Below, in pieces: positions 6,274 through 64,000 of a stretch of DNA of 64,000 nucleotides. Source of the DNA: Psychrobacter sp. AH5 (GTDB taxonomy: Bacteria > Pseudomonadota > Gammaproteobacteria > Pseudomonadales > Moraxellaceae). Numbering within the stretch: position 1 is the stretch's first letter; the number at the start of each line of letters is the position of its first letter. The notes beneath the pieces are model-generated. The model searched no databases, was not told the origin of the DNA, and was given only the letters and a program-made list of their open reading frames with translations. A program made the position numbers and the translations under genes. The stretch lies in the NCBI RefSeq assembly GCF_040371085.1, contig NZ_JAMBMT010000001.1, positions 1,550,001 to 1,614,000 of the forward strand, in the 5' to 3' direction.

Positions 6274-6374
6274 CGATGAAGCTAGGTTACAAGACTTTTA
6301 TTGAACTTATAAATCTATAACTGACTCGTTCTAATTCAAAATTTAGCTTATTTTTACTTATTAAGGTTATTTTT

Positions 6375-7301
6375 ATGGCATGGCAACAACTGCATTTACA
6401 GTGCGAAAAAACCAACGTCGATCTTGCTGAGGCATTATTATTAGAAGCGGGCGCTTTATCCATCATGCTAGACGATGCCGGTGATCAGCCACTGTTTGAG
6501 CCGCTGCCAGGTGAATCGCCGTTATGGGATGAAGTAATATTGACTGGTATCTTTGATGCAAGCTCTGAAAATGGTAGTCGGCAAGCGGTTGAGCAATTAA
6601 GCCATGAGATTGCCGCGCAAGTACAAGCCAGTCGTATTTGGCTGAGCGCTATCGAAGATAAGGACTGGGAGCGCGAATGGATGACCCATTACCAGCCTAT
6701 AGAGTGCGCTAACAACCTATGGATTGTGCCTGAATGGTTGACCCCGCCGGCTCCTGAGGCCACCAATATTATTATGGATCCAGGCTTAGCTTTTGGCACC
6801 GGCTACCACGCCACCACTCGCCTTTGTTTAGACTGGCTAACTACAGAGAGTTTGCAAGATAAAGTGGTCATCGATTATGGCTGCGGTTCTGGTATTTTGG
6901 GTATTGCCGCCTTATTATTAGGGGCGCGCCAAGTCTATGCGGTAGATATTGATCCACAAGCGGTATTAGCAACTAATCAAAACGCTGAGCGTAATCATGT
7001 CGATGATCGCCTGCTGGCTTTTTTACCTGAAGAGTTCAACGACTATTGTGCCAATAATAAGGTGATACCAGTAGATATCATAGTCGCTAACATATTGGCA
7101 AAGCCGCTCATTGGCTTAGCGCCTTATTTTGCTACCCTTATCGCTCCTAAAGGCAGAATCGTGTTAGCAGGACTTATTGAGTCGCAAACCGAAGCTGTGA
7201 CTGAGGCATATCAGCCTTACTTTACTCTTGATCCTAAGCATGCTTTTACGGCACAAGAGGATCATCACTGGCAACGTTTATCAGGAACGTTTACAGACTA
7301 G
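6375..7301 (+). CDS. prmA: Ribosomal protein L11 methyltransferase
   Basis: PrmA uses S-adenosylmethionine to trimethylate ribosomal protein L11 in the cytoplasm. The N-terminal substrate-recognition domain includes DWEREW near residue 97. The Rossmann methyltransferase domain has AFGTGYHATT near 140 and the SAM-binding motif DYGCGSGILG near 168. The motif IIVANILAKPL matches the N-P/A-L loop region of the family. The length of 308 residues is about normal. It opens a prmA-DUF3426-fis run that is well known in gammaproteobacteria. Confidence 0.96.
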   Translation: MAWQQLHLQCEKTNVDLAEALLLEAGALSIMLDDAGDQPLFEPLPGESPLWDEVILTGIFDASSENGSRQAVEQLSHEIAAQVQASRIWLSAIEDKDWEREWMTHYQPIECANNLWIVPEWLTPPAPEATNIIMDPGLAFGTGYHATTRLCLDWLTTESLQDKVVIDYGCGSGILGIAALLLGARQVYAVDIDPQAVLATNQNAERNHVDDRLLAFLPEEFNDYCANNKVIPVDIIVANILAKPLIGLAPYFATLIAPKGRIVLAGLIESQTEAVTEAYQPYFTLDPKHAFTAQEDHHWQRLSGTFTD

Positions 7302-7381
7302 CAACATCTAATTACATCTGTTACGATATCCACTGCAGTCCATAGTTAGGGCTAGTTTATGCAGCTTTTGGAATGGATAAC

Positions 7382-8305
7382 ATGACGACGCAAATCAAAA
7401 CCCAGTGCCCCAATTGCTATTCATATTTTGATTTGCCGCTAGAGTTAACGTCGCTATTGCATCATCCCAATACTCCAATGCGCTGTGGTCATTGTCAGCA
7501 CGATTTTATTATTAACGAGCATTTGATAGCCTCGGCTGATAAAGCTACCTGTGTTAGCTCTACCGACTCAGAATCTGAACACGATAGTGATAATTCTTGG
7601 TTAGAAGAGCTGATTTTAAATTTAAATAACGAAGGTCAACCTCATTATTCAACGAGCGCGACAGAAAAAAAGCTTAATCAGCCCTTGGATGAATCATTAA
7701 CTAGCGCTGTATGGGACGCTTCACCGTCTTCGATAAAAAGTGAGGCTGCAAGTATTTTCTCAAAACCGCTTTATGTACCAGACAAAATACTAGCAGATGA
7801 TAAAAAACAGCTCTCGTGGGGAGAGGATAAAAAGCGGCGTTCATTAGCTACGCTATTATGGCTAATAGGTTGTTTAGTCTTAGTGCTAGCGCTATTTGCG
7901 CAGTATGTTGTTTTTAATCTAAACACTTTGCTCAAAAACCCAGATCACGCCGCTCGCTTAGAGACCGTCTGTGCTATAGCGGCCTGTAGCTTGCCTTCTG
8001 CTGATCTAGAGGCTTTTATCATTACCGATATTGACTTTAGCGCTAGCAAGATTGAAAACGCTAACACCTTTACCGATATAAAAGCGACTTTAGAGAATCA
8101 AAGCACCAAAACGCAACTGCTTCCTAGCCTTAAAGTTAGTATTTATGACCATGACTCTCTACTTGGTGAATTCATCGCCCTACCAGAGGATTATTTGATA
8201 GGTCGTCAAGAGCAGTTAGCAGCAGGTTACGGTAAACCTTTTATATTCACTATTCCCATCAGCGCTAAACAAATTAGCCAAGTGACTATAAAAGCTATTT
8301 ATTAA
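7382..8305 (+). CDS. Zinc-ribbon and DUF3426 domain protein
   Basis: An N-terminal MJ0042-type zinc ribbon (two CxxC pairs, CPNC and CGHC) is followed by an acidic low-complexity linker. One transmembrane helix (LLWLIGCLVLVLALFAQYVV) and a periplasmic DUF3426 domain follow; the latter contains SLPSADLEAFIITDIDF and ends in a strand pattern typical of the family. The function is unknown. The gene sits between prmA and fis, as in many Pseudomonadales. I place the start at ATG 7382, which has GGA about nine bases upstream. An in-frame ATG at 7373 would add three residues. Confidence 0.85.
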   Translation: MTTQIKTQCPNCYSYFDLPLELTSLLHHPNTPMRCGHCQHDFIINEHLIASADKATCVSSTDSESEHDSDNSWLEELILNLNNEGQPHYSTSATEKKLNQPLDESLTSAVWDASPSSIKSEAASIFSKPLYVPDKILADDKKQLSWGEDKKRRSLATLLWLIGCLVLVLALFAQYVVFNLNTLLKNPDHAARLETVCAIAACSLPSADLEAFIITDIDFSASKIENANTFTDIKATLENQSTKTQLLPSLKVSIYDHDSLLGEFIALPEDYLIGRQEQLAAGYGKPFIFTIPISAKQISQVTIKAIY

Positions 8306-8353
8306 AGTGATTTACTAAAGTTATTGACTGAACATCATGAAGGACATTACCTT

Positions 8354-8653
8354 ATGGCACCCTATGCGCAATCTCCAGCCAACCGTTTTGCCCAAAGCGT
8401 TCATTATACTAAACCTGCTGAGGGCTCAGAGCCTCTACGCTACCATGTCGAGCGTATGGTTCGTGAGTATTTTTCGGCATTAGGCGATGAATTACCAACC
8501 GATCTGTATGAGCTTATCTTAAAAGAAGTTGAGCTGCCTTTACTAAAGGTTGTCCTTGAAAAGACGCGCGGTAATCAAACAAAATGCGCGCAAGTGCTAG
8601 GATTGAACCGTGGTACTTTACGAAAAAAGCTAAAATGCTACGATTTGATGTAA
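8354..8653 (+). CDS. fis: Fis-family DNA-binding protein
   Basis: This is a small nucleoid-associated regulator of the Fis family. The C-terminal helix-turn-helix reads LEKTRGNQTKCAQVLGLNRGTLRKKLK, which is highly characteristic. The N-terminal half supplies the dimer helices. I chose ATG 8354 because GAAGGA lies about nine bases upstream; a TTG at 8324 would extend the protein by ten residues. At about 99 residues it matches E. coli Fis length. It follows the DUF3426 gene closely and precedes purH. The dusB gene that commonly sits immediately upstream of fis in other gammaproteobacteria is not present here. Confidence 0.92.
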   Translation: MAPYAQSPANRFAQSVHYTKPAEGSEPLRYHVERMVREYFSALGDELPTDLYELILKEVELPLLKVVLEKTRGNQTKCAQVLGLNRGTLRKKLKCYDLM

Positions 8654-8868
8654 ATAACTGCTTTGAATGAATTAAAGCCACTGATGTAATCACGTAAAAA
8701 AGACAAAAGCTGACCACCCTTAATTAAACATGGCAATGAACAAACGGGCTACTCCTTAGCGCACATTGCCTATACTACCTTGCCTAAAGTGTCATGTATC
8801 AAACAGTCATAGTGTTAATTTACTGTCGAATACTTTTCACTTTCAGGCTTTTTTTATGGAATGATTTT

Positions 8869-10449
8869 ATGACTAGCAAACCATTAGCTCTTCTTTCAGT
8901 ATCTGACAAAGCCGGTATCGTAGCATTCGCGCAAGGTCTTATCCAATCAGGTTTTGGCCTGCTATCTACCGGTGGTACTTACCGCCTGCTAAAAGATAAT
9001 AATATCGAAGTCACCGAAGTCTCAGACTACACCGGTTTTGCTGAGATGATGGATGGCCGCGTCAAAACTCTACACCCTAAGATCCACGGCGGTATCTTAG
9101 GTCGCCGCGGTATCGATGATAAGATTATGAGCGAGCATGCTATTGAGCGTATCGATATGGTGGTGGTCAATCTATATCCGTTCGCTGAAACTATCGCGCG
9201 CGCTGACGTTACTATGACTGAGGCTATCGAAAATATCGATATTGGTGGCCCTACCATGGTTCGCGCCGCGGCTAAGAACCATGCTCACGTGGGCATCGTC
9301 ACAAGTCCTGCTGACTATGATCGCGTACTTAGCGCATTGGGTAAAGGCACGACGCTTACGCCAGCTTTGCGTTACGATTTGGCGGTAAAAGCCTTTGAGC
9401 ATACTGCTCAATACGATGGCATGATTGCTAATTTTTTAGGTAGCCGCGTTAATGAGACTCAGCAGCCAGAAGCTTTTTCGCGTACGCTAAATCTACAATT
9501 TGATAAAGTAGAGGATTTGCGCTACGGTGAAAATCCGCATCAGCAAGCGGCTTTTTATGTCGAAAACAGCGCTTCAAGTGGCGCAGATGCTTCGATTGCC
9601 ACCGCAAAGCAGCTACAAGGTAAAGCTTTGTCTTATAATAATATCGCTGATACTGACGCCGCTCTTGAGTGCGTAAAAGCCTTTAGTGCGCCAGCTTGTG
9701 TCATCGTCAAGCATGCTAACCCTTGCGGCGTGGCTATCGACTCCGACCAAGTAGCCGCTTATCGTACCGCTTTTAGCACCGATCCTGAGTCCTCTTTTGG
9801 CGGTATTATTGCTTTTAATACGCAGCTCACTGTAGCCGCTGCAAAAGATATTATTGATAATCAATTCGTAGAAGTCATCATTGCCCCAAGTATTGAAGAG
9901 GGCGTGTTAGCCGTAACTGGCGCCAAGAAAAACGTTCGTGTCTTAGTATGCGGTGAGCTGCCAGCATTGACAGAGCACAAGGCTAAGTTTGACTACAAAC
10001 GCGTCAATGGCGGCCTACTAGTCCAAGAGCAAGATTTGGCGATAATCGGCGCTAATGAGCTGCAAATCGTCACTGACGTGCAGCCAACCGAGGCGCAAAT
10101 TGCTGATCTGTTATTTACTTGGACAGTAGCTAAGTACGTCAAATCAAACGCTATCGTTTATGGCAAAAATAAGCGTACTATTGGCGTGGGCGCAGGCCAA
10201 ATGAGCCGGGTCAACTCTGCACGCATTGCCGCGATTAAAGCGGAGCACGCCGGCCTTGCAACCGAAGGCGCAGTGATGGCATCAGATGCCTTCTTCCCGT
10301 TCCGTGATGGTATCGACAATGCCGCTGAGGTAGGTATTGCTGCTATCATTCAGCCGGGCGGCTCTATGCGCGATGATGAGACTATCGCTGCTGCCAATGA
10401 GCATGGCATAGCTATGGTGTTCACCGGTATGCGTCATTTCCGTCATTAA
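8869..10449 (+). CDS. purH: Bifunctional AICAR formyltransferase / IMP cyclohydrolase
   Basis: PurH catalyses the last two steps of de novo IMP synthesis. The N-terminal MGS-like cyclohydrolase domain covers [26 protein letters not shown] and the [15 protein letters not shown] region. The C-terminal transformylase domain has [24 protein letters not shown] and the K-H-x-NPCG motif ([11 protein letters not shown]), and it ends DGMRHFRH-like (TGMRHFRH). The start is ATG 8869, giving 526 residues, the normal family length; the longer open frame from 8794 has no family match. A strong hairpin terminator follows at 10500-10533. Confidence 0.97.
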
Positions 10450-10499
10450 TAGTGATAGGGTTTTAGAATAGATCGTTTGTTAATCTATTGATAAACTAG

Positions 10500-10533
10500 C
10501 CGCTTAGCATTTTATAATACTAAGCGGTTTTTT
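10500..10533 (+). terminator. Rho-independent terminator after purH
   Basis: The stem CCGCTTAG at 10500-10507 pairs perfectly with CTAAGCGG at 10520-10527 across a 12-base loop. A run of T follows to 10533. It lies 50 bases after the purH stop and also separates purH from the convergent AraC-type gene. Confidence 0.88.
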
Positions 10534-10541
10534 ATGGTTTT

Positions 10542-11717
10542 CTATTTGACTGACTTTTGAATAAAAGCTTTACGGTAGTGACTTGGCGACTGACCATAGC
10601 GCCTTTTAAAAGCGCCACTAAAAGAATGATCAGAGGCGTAACCGACAAGCTCGCTTATCTTGCCGATAGAGTATTGCTCTTGCCGCAAAAACCTAGCGGC
10701 AAGTCGCAAGCGATAGTGACTAAGATAAGCTTGTGGAGTAATGCCAATCAGCTGCCTAAAGCGCGCGCTCAGGCTTGAGCGCGATAGCCCAGACTCTTTA
10801 GCCAACTCTTGCAACGTCCAAGCTTCTTGTGGATAACTGTGCATCAAGTATAAAGTCTTTGATAGATAAGGGTCTTTGAGAGCGGCGAGCCAATGAGCGT
10901 TATTATGCTCTTTTGTAGCGCTAGACGACCTATCATCCGCTAAACTTTCTACCGCTGTTTTCGGGGTTAGCTGCCAAGGAGCGTCCGCCCATAGCTCAGC
11001 TTTTTGCTTGGTAGGATGAGTGACAGCAGTGACGTACTGCTTGCTGCTCGAGACTGTCTCTAGTTGCTCGACATACTCTCTTATGCATTCGATCATAAGC
11101 ATACTAGCCAGCCGCTCTAGCATAGTGCTCTTGCCTGGTCGTTGTAGCCCTACTTCTAATTGAAAAAACTGTAAGCCAATTTTAACGACTTCGTTATAGG
11201 CGGAGTGCTGTTGAGTGGGCTGCGGTAAGCTATCTGGTAATGAGGACAATAGTGGTCTTGCCATATCCCTATCAAACTGGCTACGCACGACGATAAACCT
11301 AGCTAGCATAGTGCTCTTTATTTGAGTGCTCTTTATTTGTTCGCTCTCTTTGTTCTCAATATTAGTATCAGTGTGGGTTTCGATAAGAGTATCGTTTTTA
11401 CGGCTAGAACCATTGATCACTAAATTGATCTGGCCTTGTTTATGAGCTGGCATGTCAGTACTAGTAACCGCTTTAGATATATCAGGACTGGACTGAATGC
11501 GGTAGCCTTGTTTCGAAGTTAGCATAATCATATTGTTAGCGGTTATAGATTGATACTGATTGGCATAATACAAAACTATCTCACCGCTCATCACGACGAT
11601 AAATGTCAGATAATCGCGCTTGTGCTGTTCAAGTCGCCATTCACCCCCTGCCTGCACGCTAATATATTGTACTTGTTGTAAGTGCATCTCATCGAACAAA
11701 CGACTCAAAATATCCAT
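10542..11717 (-). CDS. AraC-family transcriptional regulator, probable regulator of adjacent alkane monooxygenase
   Basis: The 391-residue protein has an N-terminal cupin-like ligand-sensing domain of the AraC type and a long, poorly conserved middle rich in polar residues. The C-terminal domain has two helix-turn-helix motifs: LQELAKESGLSRSSLSARF with IGITPQAYL, then KISELVGYASDHSFSGAFKRRYGQSP. It is divergent from the alkane 1-monooxygenase across 217 bases. This matches the alkR/alkM layout described for Acinetobacter, where an AraC/XylS-type protein activates the hydroxylase on n-alkanes. A similar role is inferred from position; the effector is not determined by sequence. Confidence 0.86.
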   Translation of the reverse strand: MDILSRLFDEMHLQQVQYISVQAGGEWRLEQHKRDYLTFIVVMSGEIVLYYANQYQSITANNMIMLTSKQGYRIQSSPDISKAVTSTDMPAHKQGQINLVINGSSRKNDTLIETHTDTNIENKESEQIKSTQIKSTMLARFIVVRSQFDRDMARPLLSSLPDSLPQPTQQHSAYNEVVKIGLQFFQLEVGLQRPGKSTMLERLASMLMIECIREYVEQLETVSSSKQYVTAVTHPTKQKAELWADAPWQLTPKTAVESLADDRSSSATKEHNNAHWLAALKDPYLSKTLYLMHSYPQEAWTLQELAKESGLSRSSLSARFRQLIGITPQAYLSHYRLRLAARFLRQEQYSIGKISELVGYASDHSFSGAFKRRYGQSPSHYRKAFIQKSVK

Positions 11718-11934
11718 GACTTAGCCTACGCTTAAATTACTAAAGTAAGATTAACATAACGAAAACTTAATGATAAATGGACACTGATAAAGCGTTTTGG
11801 ACGCAAAGTGAGATATCAGTGTATTTAAGCGACGTTTTGACCCCTTCTAAAGCTCATAATGCATTATAAGCGTCACCCTATTTAATAATTTTCAGTAGAG
11901 TTTGAGATTCCTATAGTTTTGATACAAGGATAGT

Positions 11935-13200
11935 ATGATGACTAAAACTTTAAATAGTCAGCAAAATGCCATTATTCAAAATGCTGTCAATCAGTCAGCT
12001 TGGCAAGATCCAAAACGGCGCTTTTGGCTCTGTAGCCCAGCTTTACCATTTTTAGGCTGCTTGTTTGCAATAGGATTAAGGGATCAAAAAGGGTTTGACC
12101 TCAAAAACACAGCCATGGCGTGGGCAGGCACTTTACTCATCCATGCCATCATACCGCTTGCAGATGTCATCGTGGGCAGAGATGATAGCAATCCTCCTGA
12201 TAATGCTATGAAAGCGCTGGAACAAGATCCTTATTATCGATGGATAGCCCATGCTTTTATACCGCTGCAATATACTGCCCTTATATTGTTGGCTCGTCAA
12301 TATATCGAACGAGATCTGCCTTGGTACAATCGATTAGGAGTGGCGTTGACGGCAGGTATAGTAAGCGGTGTCGCTATTAATACCGCCCATGAACTGGGAC
12401 ATAAGACTGATCGTCTCAATCGTAATTTAGCGCGTTTAAGCTTAGCACCAGCGGCCTACGGACATTTTGCCATAGAGCACAACTTTGGTCATCATCGCTG
12501 GGTTGCTACCCCAAAAGATCCTGCAAGTAGTCAGTATAATGAGAGTTTTTGGCAGTTTTTGCCCCGTACCGTAATAGGCGGATTGCGCTCATCGATAAAT
12601 ATTGAGAGCGAACGTCTCGCGCGCCGAGAAAAAAGCTTTTGGCATCCAGACAATGAATTATTACAAGGATGGGCGTTATCTGTAGCGCTTTATGCCCTTC
12701 TTTACAAAGTGTTTGGAAAAAGAATTCTTCCATTTATAGGCTTGCAAGCCATATATGGACTTAGTTTATTGGAAGTGGTCAATTATTTAGAGCATTATGG
12801 CTTACTTAGACAGCAGGACGAAAAAGGTCGCTTTGAGCGTACCCAACCTGAGCATAGCTGGAATAGCAATCATACCGTCACTAATTTATTCTTGTACCAG
12901 TTGCAACGTCACTCTGATCACCATGCGCATCCGAGTCGCGCTTATCAGCTATTGCGACATTTCGATGAAGCACCGCAGTTGCCTATTGGCTATGCGTCTA
13001 TGATCCTGCCCGCTTATATTCCACCCTTGTGGTTTGCTATTATGAATAAGCGCGTTAAGGCGCACTATGATAATGACATGAGTAAAGTCAATATGCACCC
13101 TAAGCCTTTGAGTCCAATGATGCAGCGTATAACAGATAGCATAGAAAAAGGGTTAGACTTGTTTGGACGTTTGAGATCTAAGCGTTGGGATGATAAGTAA
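11935..13200 (+). CDS. alkB: Alkane 1-monooxygenase (integral-membrane di-iron hydroxylase)
   Basis: The enzyme oxidises medium to long n-alkanes to 1-alkanols in the inner membrane, using electrons from rubredoxin. All family histidine motifs are present: HELGH (152-156), EHNFGHH (181-187), NYLEHYGL (283-290) and LQRHSDHH (323-330). Hydrophobic segments lie at about 35-50, 60-80, 105-120 and 135-150, and again at 245-280. The length of 421 residues is normal. The start is ATG 11935, with AAGGA just upstream (ATG ATG doublet). No rubredoxin or rubredoxin reductase gene lies beside it, so the electron carriers must be elsewhere. The Acinetobacter name alkM would be equally apt. Confidence 0.96.
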   Translation: MMTKTLNSQQNAIIQNAVNQSAWQDPKRRFWLCSPALPFLGCLFAIGLRDQKGFDLKNTAMAWAGTLLIHAIIPLADVIVGRDDSNPPDNAMKALEQDPYYRWIAHAFIPLQYTALILLARQYIERDLPWYNRLGVALTAGIVSGVAINTAHELGHKTDRLNRNLARLSLAPAAYGHFAIEHNFGHHRWVATPKDPASSQYNESFWQFLPRTVIGGLRSSINIESERLARREKSFWHPDNELLQGWALSVALYALLYKVFGKRILPFIGLQAIYGLSLLEVVNYLEHYGLLRQQDEKGRFERTQPEHSWNSNHTVTNLFLYQLQRHSDHHAHPSRAYQLLRHFDEAPQLPIGYASMILPAYIPPLWFAIMNKRVKAHYDNDMSKVNMHPKPLSPMMQRITDSIEKGLDLFGRLRSKRWDDK

Positions 13201-14111: not shown

Positions 14112-14240
14112 AGTTCAAAATAAAGTCGATACGCTAATATTAACGTGCAGCTGGTATAAATTTTCCTTGCGTGCTGTGTCTACGCTGACAGAGGCTGCAT
14201 AAAATTCATCCCAGCTGCCCTGTATCTGTTTTAAAGTGAG
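14112..14240. repeat. Dispersed intergenic repeat, copy A
   Basis: This element closely resembles the one at 21100-21210. Shared blocks are CTGGTATAAATTTT, GCGTGCTG, AAAATTCATCCCAGC, a TTTTAAAGTG block and TCGACTATATCA, all in the same order. The arms GCTGGTATAAATTTT and AAAATTCATCCCAGC form an imperfect inverted repeat, so the unit can fold. It fills the gap between two SDR genes. It holds no open frame of note. It looks like a REP- or MITE-like genome repeat. Confidence 0.75.
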
Positions 14241-14262
14241 TCGACTATATCACTGTAAATTA

Positions 14263-15066
14263 TTAAGCCAACATACCGCCATCTAAAGTAAAGGAATGAC
14301 CATTCATAAAGCTACTCTCATCGCTAGCCAGCCAAGCGATAGCGCCTGACACCTCTTCTACTTTACCTAGGCGGCGTAACGGACTGGCTTTGATAGTCGC
14401 TTGTTGTGCGCGCTCATCCATTTTCGCCATAGTGTTTTGTACCATTGGCGTATCGATAAAGCTTGGACAAACCGCATTAAAGCGAATATTGACCCGTGCA
14501 TACTCGTGAGCTGCCGACTTGGTTAAGCCCATAACCCCATGCTTAGCGGCACTATAAGCGGACAGTAGCGGCGCTGAACGCAAGCCAGCAATAGAAGCCA
14601 CATTTATCACATGACCACCGCCGTTCGGAGCCATACAAGCTACTGCGGCGCGCATACAATGCCAAACGCCTTTTAAGTTTACCGCGATATTACGATCAAA
14701 CTCATCATCGCTCAGCTCATGCATGGGTTTTGGCGCATGGTCGATACCAGCGTTATTGATGACGACATCAAGACCGCCAAGCTCGCTCATAGCAAACTCA
14801 AATAGCGCGCGGACATCATCGCCGTCAGTGACATCGACTCGTCTAAAAGTAATACTTTGATTTGCCGCTAACGCCTCTTTATAGACGCTATCGCCTAGCG
14901 TCTCGTTCAGATCACCGATAACCACTTTTGCGCCGCGACTGGCTAATAGCTTCGCACTAGCTGCGCCAATACCTGAAGCGCCGCCAGTGATTAGAATACG
15001 TTTACCCTCGACGTTTGAGGCAGGTAAGTTGCTGAGAGTGGTTGCTTCAATTCCGTTTGCAGTCAT
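14263..15066 (-). CDS. Short-chain dehydrogenase/reductase
   Basis: A 267-residue classical SDR begins with an extra ~22 residues before the cofactor motif TGGASGIG. The conserved NNAGIDHAP, Ser in NVASIAG, YxxxK in AYSAAKHG and C-terminal DGGMLA are present. It resembles NAD-dependent hydroxyacyl/hydroxybutyrate-type dehydrogenases, but the substrate is uncertain. It starts 44 bases downstream of the acyl-CoA dehydrogenase stop, so the two are probably co-transcribed and may act on consecutive acyl intermediates. Confidence 0.9.
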   Translation of the reverse strand: MTANGIEATTLSNLPASNVEGKRILITGGASGIGAASAKLLASRGAKVVIGDLNETLGDSVYKEALAANQSITFRRVDVTDGDDVRALFEFAMSELGGLDVVINNAGIDHAPKPMHELSDDEFDRNIAVNLKGVWHCMRAAVACMAPNGGGHVINVASIAGLRSAPLLSAYSAAKHGVMGLTKSAAHEYARVNIRFNAVCPSFIDTPMVQNTMAKMDERAQQATIKASPLRRLGKVEEVSGAIAWLASDESSFMNGHSFTLDGGMLA

Positions 15067-15109
15067 GATTTATCCCTTTAAAGTTTTGATTATAGTTTAC
15101 TACTGATTA

Positions 15110-16915
15110 TTAGAACCACTCCGCTTGCATATCGGTGCAGACGGAGTTGTCATTAGTTAATAATTGAATGTCGCGCTGAATAGTGGGCAACTCCCAATCG
15201 ATAAAATATTTCGCCGCTTGAATTTTGCCATGATAGAAGTTTTGCTTATCGCTATCTTCTTCATTAGCGAGCAGTTGCTCGGCAATGCTAGCTTGGCGAA
15301 TCCAAATCCAGCTCACCACGATGGAAGCAAAAATATTCATTAAAGCTTGCGCGTTACCGGTCAAAGTAATGGCTTTTTCAGTCGGTAAAATTTTACTCAA
15401 ATGCACTAATACTTCATGCAAATGCTCCGTATAAGGCATCAATTTTCCGGCAAGTTTTGCGGTCTCAGGCGTAGTAATACTTTGCAAATCTTGGGTGATT
15501 TCACGCTTAAGAATTTGAATGCCAAGACCACCCTTTTGCCATAGCTTACGAAATGACAAATCTAGTGCTTGTACGCCGTTTGTGCCTTCATGAATGGGAT
15601 TGAGACGATTATCACGCCAAAACTGCTCAGCATGATATTCACGCGTGTAGCCTGCGCCGCCTAACACTTGAATGCCTAAGTCATTGGCTTTAGGCCCATA
15701 TTCAGAAGGCCATGCTTTGATGACTGGTGTTAACAAATCGAGCAATTCTGATAGCTCATTTTTGACGGTTTCATTGTCGCTGGTATTGATGCGGTCAATG
15801 AGGTTTGAGCCGTATAGACACAGAGCCATACCGCCCTCAGAATAAGCTTTTTGTGCCAACAGCATCCGCTTAACATCACCATGATTAATGATAGCAGTCG
15901 CCTCATGCTCAGGCTTATTATTCGGGGCAATACGGCCTTGGGTTCTATCTTTGGCATAATCAAGCGAGTATTGATAACCGCGATAACCAATCATCGCCGC
16001 GCCAAAGCCAACGCCGATACGCGCCTCGTTCATCATCTTAAACATATAGCGCAGACCAAAATGCGGTTCGCCCACTAAGTAGCCATAGCACTCGCCTTTA
16101 TCACCAAAGCTTAAAGCGGTAGAAGTGGTACCACGATAACCTAGCTTATGTAGCAACCCTGTCAAATGCACGTCGTTACGCTCGCCGATTGAGCCGTCCT
16201 CCTTGAGGCGATATTTTGGCACCACAAATAAGGAGATGCCTTTGACGCCGCCGGGCCCACCGGGTATTTTTGCTAATACTAAATGCACGATATTATCGGA
16301 TAGCTCATGGTCGCCACCAGAGATGTAGATTTTGCTACCCTTGATACGATAAGAGCCATCTTCTTGAAGAGTTGCCGTGGTTTTGATATCTGCTAATGAC
16401 GAGCCGGCATGTGGTTCAGTCAAAGCCATCGTTCCGGTAAATTCGCCCGTTAGCATTCCCGGCATAAAAGCCTCTTTGACTTCATCGCTAGCAAAATGCG
16501 CGATGACGTTAATAGCCGCTGAGGTCAAAAAAGGATAAGCGGTGGTAGAAGGATTTGCCGCCATAAAATAACCCGCCACTGCGGTCATCACCGTTTCTGG
16601 TAATTGCATGCCGCCATCTGCAAAGCTATAACGACCAGCAATAAATCCTGACTCACGAAAAGCGTCAAAAGCGACCTTAACGTCATCAATCATGCTAACG
16701 GTTTTGCCATCAAACTTTGGCTCATCTTTATCAGCCAAATGGTTATGCGGTAAAAACAAATCGGTCGCTATCTTTTTGGCGGTATCTAATACCGCATCAA
16801 AAGTGTCGCGGCTATGCTCAGCAAATTTATTATGCTCAGTCAACGCTTCGCTATCTAAAACATCGTACAACTGAAAAGGTAATTCGAAGTCATTAATCAA
16901 AGTATCGGCAGCCAT
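15110..16915 (-). CDS. Large acyl-CoA dehydrogenase (about 600 residues)
   Basis: This FAD-dependent dehydrogenase belongs to the long branch that carries an extra C-terminal domain (DmdC/3-methylmercaptopropionyl-CoA and long-chain-like enzymes). Visible motifs are TGTMALTEPHAGSSL near residue 155, KIYISGGDHEL near 195, and the active-site region QVLGGAGYTREYHAEQFWRDNRLNPIHEGTNGVQALDL near 410-450. It catalyses alpha,beta-desaturation of an acyl-CoA, and the acyl chain cannot be inferred. The ATG at 16915 has AAGGG about eight bases upstream. It is divergent from a GlxA-type regulator and heads the run with two SDRs, which suggests an inducible beta-oxidation-like module. Confidence 0.92.
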   Translation of the reverse strand: MAADTLINDFELPFQLYDVLDSEALTEHNKFAEHSRDTFDAVLDTAKKIATDLFLPHNHLADKDEPKFDGKTVSMIDDVKVAFDAFRESGFIAGRYSFADGGMQLPETVMTAVAGYFMAANPSTTAYPFLTSAAINVIAHFASDEVKEAFMPGMLTGEFTGTMALTEPHAGSSLADIKTTATLQEDGSYRIKGSKIYISGGDHELSDNIVHLVLAKIPGGPGGVKGISLFVVPKYRLKEDGSIGERNDVHLTGLLHKLGYRGTTSTALSFGDKGECYGYLVGEPHFGLRYMFKMMNEARIGVGFGAAMIGYRGYQYSLDYAKDRTQGRIAPNNKPEHEATAIINHGDVKRMLLAQKAYSEGGMALCLYGSNLIDRINTSDNETVKNELSELLDLLTPVIKAWPSEYGPKANDLGIQVLGGAGYTREYHAEQFWRDNRLNPIHEGTNGVQALDLSFRKLWQKGGLGIQILKREITQDLQSITTPETAKLAGKLMPYTEHLHEVLVHLSKILPTEKAITLTGNAQALMNIFASIVVSWIWIRQASIAEQLLANEEDSDKQNFYHGKIQAAKYFIDWELPTIQRDIQLLTNDNSVCTDMQAEWF

Positions 16916-57869: not shown

Positions 57870-57956
57870 GCCCGGGTGGTGAAATTGGTAGACACAAGGG
57901 ATTTAAAATCCCTCGCTCTAACGAGCGTGCCGGTTCAAGTCCGGCTCCGGGTACCA
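57870..57956 (+). tRNA. tRNA-Leu (UAA), probable integration site
   Basis: This 87-nucleotide class II tRNA has a long variable arm (CTCGCTCTAACGAGCG region) and an encoded CCA. The anticodon loop TTTAAAA carries TAA. The T-loop GGTTCAAGTCC is present. A P4-type integrase gene starts 160 bases downstream, so the 3' part of this tRNA is the likely attachment site. Confidence 0.96.
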
Positions 57957-57989
57957 TTACATAGTTCTATGCTATCTCATAGAGTAGCC

Positions 57990-58013
57990 AAAGCCCCTGA
58001 TATCAGGGGCTTT
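57990..58013 (+). terminator. tRNA-Leu terminator, perfect 24-bp palindrome
   Basis: AAAGCCCCTGAT and ATCAGGGGCTTT are exactly complementary. It lies 34 bases past the tRNA-Leu CCA end. It is flanked by few T beyond the palindrome, but the stem itself supplies TTT. Confidence 0.8.
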
Positions 58014-58068
58014 GCTGTATCTGACGTCCTATACTGTCTTTTAATATCTATCCCAATCCATGCATCTG

Positions 58069-58107
58069 ATGTACACTACTATGTACACTGACTTTTAAAT
58101 GTACATT
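58069..58107. repeat. Three short ATGTACA-type repeats before the integrase
   Basis: ATGTACAC, ATGTACAC and ATGTACAT recur at about 58069, 58081 and 58099 in the leader of the integrase gene. The palindromic core TGTACA is common to all. They may be recombinase arm sites or an operator. Confidence 0.5.
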
Positions 58108-58118
58108 GGGTGGCAGTC

Positions 58119-59483
58119 ATGGGAATACGCAAGCCAATCAGCTCTGATCGCAGCATCAGCAGTCACAAGGCCGAAGACAAAGAATATCTGGTCTCTGTAA
58201 GAAACTACCCCATGCTGTATCTCATGGTCAGACCTAACGGCACTAAGTCTTGGGTTTATCGCTACCTGTCTCCTACTCACTCAAAAAATAAACGTATATC
58301 GCTTGGCGTGTATCCAAACGTCTCGTTCGCTCGTGCCTGTGAAATCTGGCGTGACTATGAAGAGCTACTAAGTCGTAATATTGATCCTAAAAATCACCGT
58401 GAAGAATTAAAGAATAGTATTATTAGTAAAACTAAAAACTCATTTAATCATTTTGCTTGGGAGTACTTTGATAGTTTAGAGCAGACTCAAAAAGGTAATA
58501 CGTTAATTCGTAAGAAAGGTCGCTTGGAGCTAATATGCTCATATATTGGTGATCAGCCTATCAGTGAAATCGACTCACCTAGAATGCTTGAAGTGCTTTT
58601 AGACATCCAAGCTAAGTCATTAAACAAAGCTGGCAAGCCCACAGATAAGGCGGAGCGCTGTGCTGGTATTGCTAGTGATGTTTTTATCTATGCTGGGGCA
58701 CGAGGCTTCTGTACGAGTGATCCTGCGGCGCTCATTAAAAGCCAGTTAGCTAAGTCAAGTTACGGTCATCGTCCTGCGGTTACTAAACCGAAGGACTTGG
58801 CTAAATTACTTAAAGCTATCGAGACAATAGAAGGTGATCCAAACACTATCAACTCTCTTAGGCTATTATCGTTACTGTTCGTGCGTAATGGAGATCTCAG
58901 GCGCATGCGCTGGGCTGACGTCGACTTAGATGTTGGTAGGTGGACATTAAAGCCGCTCAAAGGACAAGGCAAGGTAAACATGGTTAAGGACATGGTCGTG
59001 CCCCTACCTCGTCAGGCAGTGGCTATCTTACGCGCGCAGCAGCAAATCAATGGTCATACTAAATTCGTCTTCTACAGTGAGACGGCAAAAAAGCATCAGA
59101 TCATCTCTGATGCGACAGCGAATAAGCGTTTAAAAGATTTGGGCTACAAAGACATTCATTGTGCTCACGGCTTTAGAGCGACAGCGAAAACCATCCTACA
59201 AGAGCATTTAAAGTATCCTCTCGTGCTTGTTGAGATGGCTTTGGGACATACAACCAAAGATCCTAATGGCACCGCCTATGGTCGATTTGAGTACATTGAT
59301 GATCGTAGTGATATGATGCAGAAGTGGGCTGATTATTTAGATGCTTTGCGAGAAGGCAGAGATACAGCAGAATTTAAAGCAGATGCGCAATCCAAAACTG
59401 ACTCTACCGCGCAGCTCCAAGCATTGATTGATCAGCTGGGAGAGGATAAAGTAATGGAACTTCTTAAGAAGGAAGAGGCATAG
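58119..59483 (+). CDS. Tyrosine-type site-specific integrase (P4 family)
   Basis: The integrase inserts an island at a tRNA gene. The N-terminal DUF4102-like domain has EYLVSVRNYPMLYLMVRPNGTKSWVYRYLSP and ISLGVYPNVSFARACE. The catalytic domain has the first Arg in LFVRNGDLRRMRWADVDL, the box-II HGFRATAKT, LGHTTKDPNG and AYGRFEYIDDR with the probable Tyr nucleophile. I start at ATG 58119, which has a GGTGG close upstream; GTG 58110 adds three residues. About 454 residues is long but typical with its C-terminal tail. It lies directly beside tRNA-Leu. Confidence 0.93.
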   Translation: MGIRKPISSDRSISSHKAEDKEYLVSVRNYPMLYLMVRPNGTKSWVYRYLSPTHSKNKRISLGVYPNVSFARACEIWRDYEELLSRNIDPKNHREELKNSIISKTKNSFNHFAWEYFDSLEQTQKGNTLIRKKGRLELICSYIGDQPISEIDSPRMLEVLLDIQAKSLNKAGKPTDKAERCAGIASDVFIYAGARGFCTSDPAALIKSQLAKSSYGHRPAVTKPKDLAKLLKAIETIEGDPNTINSLRLLSLLFVRNGDLRRMRWADVDLDVGRWTLKPLKGQGKVNMVKDMVVPLPRQAVAILRAQQQINGHTKFVFYSETAKKHQIISDATANKRLKDLGYKDIHCAHGFRATAKTILQEHLKYPLVLVEMALGHTTKDPNGTAYGRFEYIDDRSDMMQKWADYLDALREGRDTAEFKADAQSKTDSTAQLQALIDQLGEDKVMELLKKEEA

Positions 59484-59504
59484 TCTTTCAGCTAATAAGT
59501 ACTA

Positions 59505-60401
59505 CTATATTCTAAGATCATATACAGCAATATTTGTGCTCATTAAACTATGACTATTAGAGTCATTATAATCATCATAAAAAATATTGTTATCTGGGAT
59601 TCCGATGCTAGCTATGTAAGCTTTTACTGATTCACGATTTCTTATATATGCCTTCTCAGCATCTTTATAATCTTCTTCCTTAGCCTCTATTTCCTCCGAT
59701 AGAAGCTTAGTCACATAGTCTGGCAACATTTCTGAAGATACTACACAACTGGTAATTTCTTCAGAACTATCTACTAAAGCTGAAAGCCTTTCTATAATTA
59801 GCCCTACGATGTTGCTATTATTCTGGTCGAGATATTCCTGTCCATAACAAAATAACTCATGAAAGTGGATACTTTTAGAGAGTAGTTTAGTCTTTGATAA
59901 CTTCGCATATGGCTTCTGCGGTGCAAGTTTATTCACAGTTTTAGCATGGGCTATGAATACACCAGAATCTTTGAGAAGCTTGCGTGAAACAATATTAACT
60001 TTACTTGTAGAAGAAGCACTGTAAAAAATATATAAGGGCACTTTTTTAGTTATATTAGCGTGACCTAATAATTTAGTAATTTGTCCCTTCGATTGGTCTG
60101 GATAATTAATAGCTGAAACGTATTTATTATGCTCTTTACTAATTTTTTTCGCTTGAAACAGTAAAGGCAAGCTCTGAGTTTTACCTACTAACCAAATCTC
60201 CATTCTAAAGTCAGCGCCTGATGTCTTGCTCTCCTGAAGTTTAGTATAGTGTCTGAAATCTAAATGTTGGAAACACTTATTAATATCTGCCCACTTCCAA
60301 AATAAATAGTCGGTAATAGATTCTTCGCCTACGTGTCTAACATTTTCAGTAAATTCTACTACTTGCCTTTCGACCTCTTTATGTTTTTCACACATGTTCA
60401 T
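59505..60401 (-). CDS. Putative PD-(D/E)xK-like nuclease, resembles DUF6615 proteins
   Basis: The 298-residue soluble protein has no signal peptide. The N-terminal half has the pattern EESITDYLFWKW (Glu26/27, Asp31), then KLQESKTSGADFRMEIWLV (Asp64, Glu68) and PLLFQAKKI (Gln83, Lys85). The D...(E/Q)xK spacing suits a restriction-endonuclease-like fold with a Q-x-K variant. The C-terminal half is helical and charged (EEIEAKEEDYKDAEKAYIRN). A DUF6615 match is suggested from memory and not confirmed. It starts at ATG 60401, with AGGAAAG upstream, and stands between an integrase and a GmrSD-type gene. The biological role is unknown; anti-phage defence is inferred from position. Confidence 0.7.
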   Translation of the reverse strand: MNMCEKHKEVERQVVEFTENVRHVGEESITDYLFWKWADINKCFQHLDFRHYTKLQESKTSGADFRMEIWLVGKTQSLPLLFQAKKISKEHNKYVSAINYPDQSKGQITKLLGHANITKKVPLYIFYSASSTSKVNIVSRKLLKDSGVFIAHAKTVNKLAPQKPYAKLSKTKLLSKSIHFHELFCYGQEYLDQNNSNIVGLIIERLSALVDSSEEITSCVVSSEMLPDYVTKLLSEEIEAKEEDYKDAEKAYIRNRESVKAYIASIGIPDNNIFYDDYNDSNSHSLMSTNIAVYDLRI

Positions 60402-60574
60402 ATTAGGCTTTCCTAGCTATCAAATTAATAAGTTGTATTTAAAAAACAATCGTCTTACAGGCATATACTATCTTCAAAAAACCGATTTTTCATCAAGCAC
60501 AATTCAAGATAACTATTATTTATAAGAAAGCTGTTTGTGTTAGCGTTTATGTCTAGCAGAATTACTGTAGAGAG

Positions 60575-62671
60575 TTATACGCCCTCACCCATCTGTATTT
60601 CTAAAGCTTGGCGAATCAGACCCATGACGTAAGGCACCTGAGAGATATTATTAATTCCTACCTCAGCATCCCCATTTCCCCATCGACCAAGATTGGTAAC
60701 ATCACGAGCTATACCTTTAGGATCATTTAGATCATGGAAGGGTATATTTAAAGTGAGACGCAGTCTACTCTTTTGAGGAACAACGTCCACAAAATTGGTA
60801 TCCGCTTTAAACGCAACATAAAGTTTCAATATATCTTCAGTGACACTAGGATCAAGTGCCATTATTTCATTGCGTAGCTGTTCAAAAAGCTCGCGCATGG
60901 GCATTCCTTTATTTAGTTGAGGATGATCAGCTAATGTGTAACTTCCTTGCTTTGGTGGAGTATTTTGATAAGTTCTTAATACCTCTTCAGTCAGCGAAGG
61001 AGTATCCCAAACTTTAATAGCACGATTAGCAAGTTGATTGGCTCTAGCCTTGATTGCTTGTTCATTCCATAATTCTACAGCACCTAAGCCTTCATTGAGT
61101 ATAAGAGGGCTATACTTGAAACCACCTGACATATCGCGTTTATCAGTAAATGGACGGTCACTATATTCAGAGTTATAACCAGTGAGTGTTAAGTTGCCCA
61201 AGGTATGTAGATAGGTTTCATGCACTCGTACCCATTCTTCACCAAGCTCATTCTGCCATTCTTTGGAAAGCTTTTCATTTTGAGGCATGATATGTTCGAC
61301 GGTATATTCGTGCACTGGAACACGCTCTTTGCGTTCAAAATTTTCCAAACGGCGTAACCAATAACTTCTACTACGTATGGTATACAAATCGCGGAGAACT
61401 AAATCACGCTTAAACTCATCATTACGTGGAAATCTCTTATAAGAACGCAATCCTAGTAAATGCGCTTTAAAACTTTCTAAATAACGTTCTTTATCCAAAG
61501 ATTTATGAAAAGTGGCAAAGGTTTTATTTAGAGAGTTGGTAGGAATAGCACAGACTGCACGGCGAAATACATAAGCTTCAATTAAGCGAATTGCTGTATG
61601 GAAGTCCTCTTTAGTAAGCTGCCCTTGACTATAGTCGTCATATAACTCAAGCAATAATGGATAAGCTACATCGACCTTTAATTCACGCAAGTCTCTGAAC
61701 GCCATAGACAGTTGATTATCAGCCTCTTTATCTAGTGCCATTGCACAGAAGTAGCTTGCAAATGCGTGGATATCTGCTACTAGCTGATCTACACCTAAGC
61801 CCATTGTTTCAGCATTTTGCGCGTGTTGCTTAAAGGCATCATAGACACCGTCGATACGCGGTATATCCCCAGTCTTAACAGTAAGGTAATGGCGCATAAA
61901 ACTATCAAAATAGCTGCCATATCCTTCCTGACCAAACTCAATTTCCATCGGTCGCCAATGATTATTATATAGTTTAGCTTGATGTTCTGGTTCTAACCCC
62001 ATTAGTACAAAGTTACGAATCAGATCAGCTTGGCTCAATGCCTTACCAGTAGAGTTCATACTCTCAAAAATCAGCTGTGGATTATCTTGATCTCGGCTTA
62101 GAGCGATATCAACAATAATTAGCTTAGCTAAACCACGGCAGAGTTGTTCCAAATTATTATTCAGTTTTTCGATCTTCTTATCAAAGAAATTGAAATTTTC
62201 TTCAACACGAAGTGAATGATTCTCTGGAAGTGGCTTCTGTGTTACTAACGCCAAAAGACTGTCTTTATCAGTCTGTGTCAATATTAATTTATATTTGCGT
62301 TCACCTTTTTCATAAGGATTAAGCAAATAGTAGTTACGTAACTTTTCTGCTGAGAACCCTTCTATTGGCTCGCTGTCACCAAGATGCCTTGATAAAGCCT
62401 CTAACAGTAACATAGCCGTCGTTAAGCGCTGTTGTCCATCTATAACTAACAATGGAGACTGACTTGATATTTGGTATAAACCTTGCTCGATATAAACAAC
62501 AGATCCAATAAAATGACCTCCTACAGCGTCATTACTACCTGCTCGAATGATATCATCCCACAGCTGTTGGCACTGTTGCTCGGTCCATGAGTAGGTACGC
62601 TGATAAATAGGAATAACAAATTGTGGTGACTTTTGCAGGAATTTAAGGAGTTTGGCTTCTGTTGCTTTCAT
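60575..62671 (-). CDS. GmrSD-type (DUF262/DUF1524) endonuclease
   Basis: The 698-residue single-chain protein of the type IV restriction class cuts modified DNA in the characterised GmrSD systems. The DUF262 (GmrS-like ParB/Srx nucleotide-binding) domain has IYQRTYSW (22-29) and the signature IDGQQRLTT (77-85). The DUF1524 (GmrD-like HNH nuclease) domain has VEHIMPQN with His460, then LGNLTLTGYNSEYSDRPF. A C-terminal DUF5655-like segment ends QVPYVMGLIRQALE. The target modification (hydroxymethyl- or glucosyl-cytosine, or another) is not determined. It lies next to the type I restriction genes. Confidence 0.92.
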   Translation of the reverse strand: MKATEAKLLKFLQKSPQFVIPIYQRTYSWTEQQCQQLWDDIIRAGSNDAVGGHFIGSVVYIEQGLYQISSQSPLLVIDGQQRLTTAMLLLEALSRHLGDSEPIEGFSAEKLRNYYLLNPYEKGERKYKLILTQTDKDSLLALVTQKPLPENHSLRVEENFNFFDKKIEKLNNNLEQLCRGLAKLIIVDIALSRDQDNPQLIFESMNSTGKALSQADLIRNFVLMGLEPEHQAKLYNNHWRPMEIEFGQEGYGSYFDSFMRHYLTVKTGDIPRIDGVYDAFKQHAQNAETMGLGVDQLVADIHAFASYFCAMALDKEADNQLSMAFRDLRELKVDVAYPLLLELYDDYSQGQLTKEDFHTAIRLIEAYVFRRAVCAIPTNSLNKTFATFHKSLDKERYLESFKAHLLGLRSYKRFPRNDEFKRDLVLRDLYTIRSRSYWLRRLENFERKERVPVHEYTVEHIMPQNEKLSKEWQNELGEEWVRVHETYLHTLGNLTLTGYNSEYSDRPFTDKRDMSGGFKYSPLILNEGLGAVELWNEQAIKARANQLANRAIKVWDTPSLTEEVLRTYQNTPPKQGSYTLADHPQLNKGMPMRELFEQLRNEIMALDPSVTEDILKLYVAFKADTNFVDVVPQKSRLRLTLNIPFHDLNDPKGIARDVTNLGRWGNGDAEVGINNISQVPYVMGLIRQALEIQMGEGV

Positions 62672-62803
62672 AGCTGTAAATATTTCCTTGATATTAATTT
62701 TGTCATTTATTAATTGATCACTACAATAACTTCAGAATTTGGGTATAGCTTAATTGATTCCAATAACGAGGTAGATTGAACCCTCTATATTGTTACTGTA
62801 TGC

Positions 62804-63457
62804 TTATAAGCTATTCCCGTATTTATCAAGCCAGTTAATCGCCTCTTTATAATCAGGATACAGTGACTTTAATAACGTCCAAAACTTAGCTGAATGATTC
62901 ATGATTTTTGTGTGTACAAGTTCATGAATGATAATATAATCTGATACTAGAGTTGGCACCTTAATCAAACGCCAATTTAGAGAAATATTTTTATCACTAG
63001 AACAATTTCCTAGTTTAGTTTTTTGATCTTTAATGTAGACAGCTTTGTAAGTGAAATTCAACCTTCCTGCTAGCTCTTTAGTTCTAGGCACTAAGTATTT
63101 TTTGGCTTCAGCCTTATACCACTTTTTTTGAACAACGGGATCTAGCAGATCTTTTTTGGCTCGAATTGTCTTATATTCATGGTCAATGATGACTTTAGTA
63201 CTACAAGTTTCATCGTAGAAGTAAGAGTACCTGTTACCAAACATTAAGAGTTGGTTACGGCCCAACTCAATCTGGATTTTCTTACTAAAAAAAGACTGCT
63301 GCTTAGTGACCCATTTTGATTTCTTAGTAATTAATGCCTCTATTTCATTATCAGCAAATGAAGTCGGCACAAGAACTCTGACTTGTCCATCTTCTGACAC
63401 CCTTATTCTGGCGTGTTTAACATCTTTTTTCTCTATTATGTAATTCTTTGATGACAT
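62804..63457 (-). CDS. YgjP-like metallopeptidase (DUF45/M48-like)
   Basis: The 217-residue protein has a zinc-peptidase motif HELVH (178-182) with a third ligand His188 in MNHSAKFW. An N-terminal beta-rich domain (RIRVSEDGQVRVLVPTSF) matches YgjP/DUF45 proteins. Such genes are often encoded beside type I restriction-modification operons, and this one starts a few bases after the HsdR stop, so it is co-transcribed and probably coupled. The function is thought to be regulation or proteolysis of the restriction complex; no experiment is cited here. Confidence 0.88.
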   Translation of the reverse strand: MSSKNYIIEKKDVKHARIRVSEDGQVRVLVPTSFADNEIEALITKKSKWVTKQQSFFSKKIQIELGRNQLLMFGNRYSYFYDETCSTKVIIDHEYKTIRAKKDLLDPVVQKKWYKAEAKKYLVPRTKELAGRLNFTYKAVYIKDQKTKLGNCSSDKNISLNWRLIKVPTLVSDYIIIHELVHTKIMNHSAKFWTLLKSLYPDYKEAINWLDKYGNSL

Positions 63458-63459
63458 TT

Positions 63460-64000
63460 TTAATTTAATCCAAAATACTTAATAATACTCAGCATAATAG
63501 CATCCATAAGTTGCGAGTCATCTTCAATACCCAACTCTTGGTATTTGTCTGAAGCTGCAAATATTTCAATATAAACCTGCAAACGTGTAACTTCTTTAGG
63601 TATATCCTGCCAACCAATGTAAATTTTCCTTTTAACAATTAATTCTACTATATCCTTAGCAAGCTCTTTGGTTAACTCATCATTAAAGCTAATTAGATTG
63701 GCGTTTTTAATGTGGGCATAGATCTCAAACGTCCCTTTATCTGCAAATCCCATTTTTTGAGGCAAGGTAGCAATATCATCAAGTTCATCGTAAAGCTTTC
63801 CTAGCTCAAGTAAAAGCTGCTCAATCGCCTGATTTTCTTCATTTTTCTTTTTTACTAGCTCATCCAATCGGTTCTGAAACTCAACATATGCTGCACTATT
63901 TACTTCATTCCTGCGGATGACTGTTTCAATATCACGTATAATTTTTTCTGCCTTATCTGATGGAGACAACTTAGTTTGTCTTAACTCATCCAGATAGTTC
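63460..64000 (-). CDS. hsdR: Type I restriction endonuclease subunit HsdR, C-terminal end only
   Basis: Only the C-terminal ~180 residues are in the window. The frame is open through base 64000 (NYLDELRQTKLSPSD at the edge), so the TTG-led piece beginning at 63969 is not the true start. The sequence is helical and charged (AEKIIRDIETVIRRNEVNSAAYVEFQNRLDELVKKKNEE), matching the C-terminal helical domain of EcoR124-type HsdR. The motor and nuclease domains lie outside the window. Identity rests on this C-terminal wording and on the neighbouring YgjP-like gene. Confidence 0.78.
   Translation of the reverse strand, partial: NYLDELRQTKLSPSDKAEKIIRDIETVIRRNEVNSAAYVEFQNRLDELVKKKNEENQAIEQLLLELGKLYDELDDIATLPQKMGFADKGTFEIYAHIKNANLISFNDELTKELAKDIVELIVKRKIYIGWQDIPKEVTRLQVYIEIFAASDKYQELGIEDDSQLMDAIMLSIIKYFGLN

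Follow-up and report, generated by a model that had tools for sequence, protein, structure and literature searches.

Among described elements, the closest to the locus studied here are the Pseudomonas islands I23, I44 and I55, which, in the available part of the report (PMC12595487), have an integrase at one end, variable anti-phage cargo, genes for YqaJ, an inovirus Gp2-like protein and AlpA, a short direct repeat at the 3′ end of an RNA gene, and no recognised transfer genes; I55 is packaged by a jumbo phage. The same layout recurs in an island of Psychrobacter sp. AH5 (genome of 3.24 Mb), whose left end lies in the 64,000-nucleotide stretch analysed here (positions 1,550,001-1,614,000 of contig NZ_JAMBMT010000001.1; hereafter the window). 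We read it, with a probability of roughly 0.8, as an integrative, non-conjugative island of 27.9 kb that sits in the 3′ end of tRNA-Leu(UAA), carries a conserved core at its right end and its cargo in the middle, and is presumably moved by a helper.

By genes and layout, the terms of comparison available here, the AH5 island appears to resemble the I55 islands. The likeness extends to the mixing of cargo, since I44, in the same partial account, also combines defence with hydantoinase-type metabolic genes. Unlike I55, however, which occupies tmRNA (PMC12595487), the AH5 island targets tRNA-Leu (tRNA-Ser(GGA) in sister elements), and its core includes DUF932 and a Gp3-like factor in strict order. 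The 3′ signature of I55 was found in none of 390 genomes of the order and in four of 298 genomes of one genus, taken to be Pseudomonas.

Other described islands share parts of the cargo. Vibrio cholerae pathogenicity island VPI-2 likewise unites a type I restriction–modification (R-M) system with a type IV system of the GmrSD family, and its type I system and TgvAB are suggested, in the part of the report at hand, to be complementary, directed against unmodified and modified phage DNA, respectively (PMC11411939). Whereas VPI-2 holds a two-gene type IV system within its hsd cluster, AH5 has a single GmrSD-DUF5655 fusion downstream of hsdMSR-ygjP, plus a DUF6615 gene. The RptR-RMS-DarTG-M48 (RRDM) island of enteropathogenic Escherichia coli (EPEC) is already drawn with a metallopeptidase gene after a type I system, as in AH5, and the portion of that report consulted gives the peptidase no role (PMC12255303); unlike it, the AH5 island returned no DarTG match in our PADLOC scan, and RptR was not searched for. 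With P4-type satellites and CP4-57 prophages the island shares the integrase type and the AlpA and YfjJ families, but among the proteins scanned it has no P4 replication or capsid-remodelling family.

The island lies between att copies at tRNA-Leu(UAA)

The initial annotation, made from the window, proposed a defence island anchored on tRNA-Leu(UAA), with a P4-type integrase followed by minus-strand genes for a putative nuclease, a GmrSD-type protein, a YgjP-like protease and the end of HsdR. ARAGORN, Rfam and Pfam confirm the tRNA and the integrase, and the four genes lie where they had been placed, the nuclease being a DUF6615 protein. The calls are not due to chance, since each named domain exceeds its Pfam cut-off and hsdS and hsdM continue beyond the window. 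Right of the integrase the window does hold minus-strand genes only; plus-strand genes appear further right in the island. The features are as follows, extended coordinates continuing the window numbering into 52 kb of the same contig to its right.

57870-57956, plus strand: tRNA-Leu(UAA), the integration target (ARAGORN, Rfam tRNA)
57940-57959, plus strand: attL core TCCGGCTCCGGGTACCATTA (k-mer comparison with the AH5 genome right of the window)
58070, 58082 and 58100 (span 58070-58105), no strand: TGTACA, candidate left arm-type sites (word count)
58110-59483, plus strand: tyrosine integrase of the P4/CP4-57 type, 457 aa, GTG start (PF13356, PF22022, PF00589)
59505-60401, minus strand: DUF6615 protein, 298 aa (PF20320, 46 bits against a cut-off of 23.8)
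60575-62671, minus strand: GmrSD-type protein (DUF262 and DUF1524) with C-terminal DUF5655, 698 aa (Pfam GmrSD_N, GmrSD_C and DUF5655; PADLOC)
62804-63457, minus strand: YgjP/SprT-like zinc metallopeptidase, 217 aa (PF01863; HExxH)
63460-64000 and on to extended 66522, minus strand: 3′ part of hsdR, 1020 aa in full (TIGR00348, over cut-off)
to extended 67848 and then to extended 69887, minus strand: hsdS, then hsdM (Pfam)
14131-15207 of locus L004 (in extended 70131-72215), divergent to the CoiA-like gene: 358-aa protein without a family
15310-16215 of locus L004 (in extended 70131-72215), divergent to the 358-aa gene: CoiA-like protein

The predicted attR exists: 20 bp, made up of the 3′ end of the tRNA and the next three bases, recur exactly at extended 85812-85831, about 27.9 kb right of attL; the final 17 bases of the tRNA are part of the att core. 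The repeat segment that had been named, GGTTCAAGTCCGG, is right only in its last five bases, which it shares with the start (TCCGG, at 57940) of the att repeat. The island between the att copies measures 27,892 bases, has a G+C content of 38.7% against 44% in the flanks, and is followed directly after attR by ldcA on the minus strand. The integrase starts 153 bases after tRNA-Leu, and its Arm-DNA-bind_3, Phage_int_M and Phage_integrase domains are all over the Pfam cut-off. A partner pair of TGTACA words stands beside attR (extended 85734 and 85746). The 27.9-kb island has eight such words in all, of which five are terminal, three on the left and two on the right. Of the six sibling elements described below, four show the same 3 + 2 arrangement and G038 has 2 + 2; G041 has none (0 + 0), AGTATAC replacing TGTACA at both ends, a joint alteration that is expected if one protein binds both ends.

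From left to right, the genes encode the integrase, DUF6615, GmrSD, YgjP, HsdR, HsdS, HsdM, the 358-aa protein, the CoiA-like protein, an NCS1 permease, an allantoinase-PuuE-like protein, an IS3 insertion sequence (recognised by eye), a flavin monooxygenase (FMO), AlpA, a Gp3-like recombination directionality factor, a YqaJ exonuclease, DUF932, a 96-aa protein, a YfjJ/YagK-type protein and a 314-aa protein. Further mobile genes had been anticipated to the right, and AlpA, the Gp3-like factor, YqaJ, DUF932 and YfjJ bear this out. The grouping of a type I with a type IV system is likewise real, hsdS and hsdM lying beyond the window. The label of an anti-phage island suits the predicted defence cargo but not the whole, which is not purely defensive given the permease, the allantoinase-PuuE-like protein, the monooxygenase and IS3.

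In 19 island proteins searched with Pfam (IS3 and shorter open reading frames (ORFs) fell outside the scan), no relaxase, mating-pair, capsid, terminase or P4 replication gene was detected; the last three were also absent from the ten proteins searched with PHROGs, which returned only AlpA, RecE-like, DUF932 and unknown-function families. PADLOC and PHROGs gave no family for the DUF6615, 358-aa and CoiA-like proteins; NCBIfam gave none for these three or for GmrSD, YgjP, AlpA, YfjJ and the 314-aa, 96-aa and Gp3-like proteins; and a PDB sequence search with the YqaJ and DUF932 profiles and the 358-aa protein yielded no match.

To compare target sites across the genus, we used ldcA (matched in 79 of 80 genomes) and the tRNA-Cys/tRNA-Leu stretch (76 of 80) as markers. 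Both occur in 74 genomes, on different contigs in 46 and on one contig, though not neighbouring and convergent, in seven; gaps were measured in the other 21. They range from 70 bp to 51.6 kb: 70 bp in G076, 180 bp in G067, about 1.2-1.7 kb in three genomes and 8.0-51.6 kb in sixteen, AH5 included. Sites free of the island had been named as a test, and G076 and G067 provide them in a comparison between species, both being other species and not sister strains. In G076, tRNA-Leu continues straight into sequence resembling that after attR in AH5.

Other arrangements of the interval were also seen. G071 and G036 hold about 17 and 15 kb of extra DNA, respectively, between attR and ldcA, with a second type I system and YgjP, which suggests stacked insertions. 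In G078, tRNA-Leu and ldcA are about 4.6 kb apart and not convergent, a local rearrangement.

A closely related island in P. faecalis

P. faecalis DSM 14664 (G016) carries an island that is similar over much of its length. DNA identity is 96.3% over 57576-66621, 98.3% over extended 67173-75090, 84% in the IS3 stretch and 92% over extended 76377-77094. Island proteins are up to 99.8% identical, and FMO, AlpA and the Gp3-like factor are 100% identical at the protein level, against a background of 73% for LdcA and 79% for the DNA around the tRNAs. Approximately 17 kb at 96-98%, set against an LdcA of 73%, is on sequence grounds the mark of recent horizontal movement. The right end of the P. faecalis island lies beyond its contig.

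Three blocks differ between the two islands: an HsdS domain, the IS3 stretch and the region right of the Gp3-like gene. In HsdS, the first 180 columns are 93% identical and the last 26 residues 100%, but the second target domain (approximately residues 225-409) is only 10-25% identical in 60-column blocks. Because this domain has been replaced, the two islands should recognise targets that share one half only. They thus form a natural pair: the islands are closely similar, their hosts are two species, and a single target domain sets their restriction enzymes apart. They show how restriction specificity can be swapped within a moving island. Right of the Gp3-like gene, YqaJ and DUF932 are 86-87% identical and the 96-aa, YfjJ and 314-aa proteins 28-38%.

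A fixed core with exchangeable cargo

Complete elements with both att copies were found in AH5 and six other genomes (G028, G036, G038, G041, G068 and G071), measuring 22.1-36.5 kb; the att pair of the siblings is 20 bases long in five and 18 in G038. The genes for the integrase, AlpA, Gp3-like factor, YqaJ, DUF932, 96-aa protein and YfjJ keep a single order in all seven elements, and a recognisable 314-aa protein is present in four. The integrase is 73-92% identical across the six siblings. The cargo differs: G028 and G041 carry type III restriction, together with an HKD and Snf2 protein in G028 and a DrmD-like helicase in G041, and G068 carries a 79% identical GmrSD with a different type I system (from 64 ORFs listed in the six siblings, nine were scanned by PADLOC and nine by Pfam, in three siblings). 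The genome G079 bears the same species label, although its LdcA is only 79% identical; it has attR, and its island is another element, since the core genes are 26-87% identical.

A wider scan with a YqaJ alignment, one genome per species, gave 66 loci, 61 in Psychrobacter and five in Alcanivorax-like or other gammaproteobacterial genomes; AH5 itself has one copy. In the Psychrobacter loci, the order YfjJ, DUF932, YqaJ, Gp3-like is kept wherever these genes are present in the stretch, and AlpA was not detected in a few (e.g., L169 and two plasmid contigs). Twenty-eight loci adjoin tRNA-Ser(GGA), where a different integrase (25-29% identical) lies on the YfjJ side of the core, 16 have an attR of the tRNA-Leu type, two are on plasmid-type contigs, and 15 of the 66 were not assignable to a site. 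The same block stands beside annotated replication genes on plasmids PsyG_26 of Psychrobacter and pARA3 of Acinetobacter radioresistens, both typed non-mobilizable, with Gp2 inverted in pARA3. These islands are a genus-wide family in Psychrobacter with a fixed core; the kind of element is already known. Within the open-licence literature, to which all our literature searches were confined, we found no account of this family or of the order of its core, nor of its pair of tRNA targets or the exchange of a target domain. The family offers a testable system in which a fixed mobility core, two tRNA targets and interchangeable predicted defence cargo occur across a genus.

Two loci, L122 and L123, looked like excised circular forms of the island. 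The record of L122 names it a plasmid; in L123 a replication-protein-like and a metal-efflux-like gene can be recognised by eye. We take both as plasmids that share the core, as the AH5 integrase has no match in either (16.2 of 20.9 kb compared for L122, all 19.7 kb for L123).

Within the core, YfjJ has residues H189-C190-H191 and Y265 invariant in 48 sequences. When its structural model (predicted local distance difference test, pLDDT, 91) is compared by Foldseek, the top matches include the nuclease domains of parvovirus NS1 and AAV Rep. Relatives on PsyG_26 and pARA3 are annotated as inovirus-type Gp2. In phage records, YfjJ matched two Acinetobacter phage entries at 27.5% identity over 67%; the Gp3-like protein had no match there.

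How the island may move

If the AH5 island is integrative and helper-moved, its integrase would recombine attL with attR, aided by the excisionase/regulator AlpA, the Gp3-like factor or both. YfjJ, as an HUH-type Rep protein, would nick and replicate the circle, and YqaJ with its partners would drive recombination between elements, leading to swapped blocks. A helper would then move the island, by analogy a phage, as for I55; one is needed because no capsid, terminase, relaxase or mating gene is among the proteins scanned. The cargo would be retained for protecting the cell, and hence the island, from phages, with a possible division of labour in which the type I system acts on unmodified DNA, GmrSD on modified DNA and DUF6615 as a probable further nuclease.

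Several observations weigh against this account. Neither an excised circle nor attP nor a packaged copy was observed. YfjJ is not necessarily the initiator, since the core on plasmids sits beside a separate annotated replication gene, and its Foldseek matches, although of probability 1.00, are weak by E-value for an HUH protein (best 0.018, none below 0.001). The IS3 copy and the metabolic genes inside the island suggest accretion. Relatives of DUF932 occur on 35 plasmid records from ten genera, of which 16 are typed conjugative, 14 non-mobilizable and five mobilizable. HsdM (L004:11848-13887, extended 67848-69887) has NFPF as methyltransferase motif IV instead of NPPF or NPPY, so its methylation activity is not certain; NFPF is common to the AH5 and P. 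faecalis copies, every other HsdM with an extractable motif having NPP. Finally, the four elements with the I55 end signature contain no core gene, a related integrase being found in three and type I genes in two.

The strongest rival is that the island is a phage satellite of the I55 kind, induced, packaged and transduced by a helper phage, perhaps a jumbo phage. It shares its layout and its lack of transfer genes with I23, I44 and I55, to the extent that the available part of PMC12595487 describes them, and IMG/VR contigs carry the core block, several with integrases 22-35% identical to that of AH5. These contigs may, however, stem from integrated islands that were taken for proviruses. No structural or packaging family was among the PHROG matches of ten island proteins, and in the four I55-signature elements neither tblastn (E 0.01) nor a profile search (E 0.1) found a core gene. 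We give the satellite explanation somewhat less than an even chance. Psychrobacter offers a second genus for the study of phage-borne defence-island transfer.

It is also conceivable, if less likely than not, that YfjJ, the 96-aa protein, DUF932, YqaJ and the Gp3-like factor form a mobility module that is complete in itself and portable, present both in chromosomal islands (at two tRNA sites) and on small Psychrobacter and Acinetobacter plasmids. Such elements would constitute a new helper-dependent class in Moraxellaceae and would have relatives in Alcanivorax-like genomes. Their replication would be started by an HUH Rep, and the exonuclease together with the Gp3-like factor would recombine incoming with resident copies, exchanging both cargo and core alleles.

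An immobile, accreting defence hotspot, in which homologous recombination and IS activity bring genes together and the integrase is a remnant, is unlikely. IS3 lies inside the island, blocks have been replaced in hsdS and right of the Gp3-like gene, and the tRNA-Leu/ldcA interval has other content in several genomes, G053 and G022 holding an FMO gene there without the core. Against this, the integrase frame is open and 73-92% conserved together with an att pair in six other complete elements, arm-like sites are present, and 17 kb are nearly identical in another species. The FMO gene of AH5 (extended 76937-78799) is 92% identical to that of G022 and 84% to that of G053.

That the island is a mobilisable element, relying on YfjJ as its relaxase and on a conjugative helper, is improbable: the HUH-like motif of YfjJ, its conserved tyrosine and the presence of the core or the DUF932 gene on plasmids (16 of 35 DUF932 records typed conjugative), would allow it, but the tyrosine (265) follows the HUH motif (189-191), which is the order of Rep proteins and not of relaxases, and the plasmids opened, PsyG_26 and pARA3, are non-mobilizable.

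Restriction systems and DUF6615

In the predicted defence cargo, GmrSD contains the DGQQR, FESMNSTG and HIMPQ motifs, HsdR contains GSGKS, DEAH and PIEAK, and hsdM, hsdS and hsdR are intact with catalytic motifs apart from the motif IV variant of HsdM. Spacings of -1 to 3 bases between hsdM, hsdS, hsdR and ygjP suggest that these four genes form one operon; next on this strand come gmrSD, 132 bases further on, and duf6615, after another 173.

DUF6615 is rare. A protein search of the class found it in two of 369 genomes, and the Pfam family occurs in five of 398 genomes of the phylum and three of 80 of the genus, with AH5 counted each time. The three copies in the genus (G000, G008 and G016) all lie directly right of the integrase at tRNA-Leu. 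Two plasmid records and no phage record matched, and no publication on the family was found. Invariant columns in seven sequences include E26, T30, G62, D64 and Q83-A84-K85, which contain the E...D...(Q)xK motif of PD-(D/E)XK nucleases. A low-confidence model (pLDDT 59) has the order helix-strand-strand-strand-helix-strand; its top Foldseek match is human Rep15 (E 6e-5), followed by SwaI, RecU, EcoRV, Hjc and PvuII, the restriction-enzyme, RecU and Hjc matches having E-values of 0.006-0.15. We therefore read DUF6615 as probably a PD-(D/E)XK nuclease, Mrr-like in type.

A fixed pairing of DUF6615 with GmrSD was considered, as the two are neighbours in all three genus copies, and was rejected, as L108, the single locus from outside the genus that was compared, has no GmrSD match and G068 has GmrSD without DUF6615. 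In G008 (L107, ~3950-12430) the GmrSD gene matches as two parts with about 8.5 kb of other DNA between them.

A metallopeptidase gene beside hsdR

The ygjP gene lies directly downstream of hsdR, with two bases between them. YgjP is found within 600 bases on the same strand for 11 of 18 long hsdR frames in the loci examined, and hsdR lies in the 1.5-kb flanks of eight of 30 YgjP genome loci (those with the best matches among the 124 genomes that have the family) as opposed to none of 60 control loci, all from Psychrobacter; neither count consists of independent cases, since several are close relatives or the same island. On plasmids, 521 of which have a YgjP match, ten were opened, picked for diversity among 30 listed. 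Seven have an annotated hsdR or hsdR-like gene adjacent (convergent in one, from Priestia), an Acetobacter plasmid has an unannotated hsdR that tblastn detected, and in the remaining two, which lack annotation, hsdR had no match. We had considered the gene order a discovery and dropped that claim in view of the EPEC RRDM island (PMC12255303, as far as the part consulted goes).

In the parts of the reports available, EcoKI is under the control of ClpXP proteolysis (PMC11109961), and the antirestriction protein ArdC has a metalloprotease domain, the activity of which is dispensable (PMC7213743). Our searches found no publication that links YgjP with type I restriction. We infer that YgjP may be a built-in restriction-alleviation or DNA–protein-crosslink protease of type I enzymes, clearing restriction complexes. 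As judged from sequence, DUF6615 and the hsdR-linked YgjP, both proteins without an assigned role, are candidates for parts of an anti-phage locus.

G028 and G071 also have the 358-aa/CoiA-like gene pair, flanked by restriction cargo on one side and AlpA on the other, and at the filter used the 66 YqaJ loci include nine with the CoiA-like and eight with the 358-aa protein. By eye, the latter has membrane segments and a zinc-ribbon-like motif. This recurrent pair could be a defence module.

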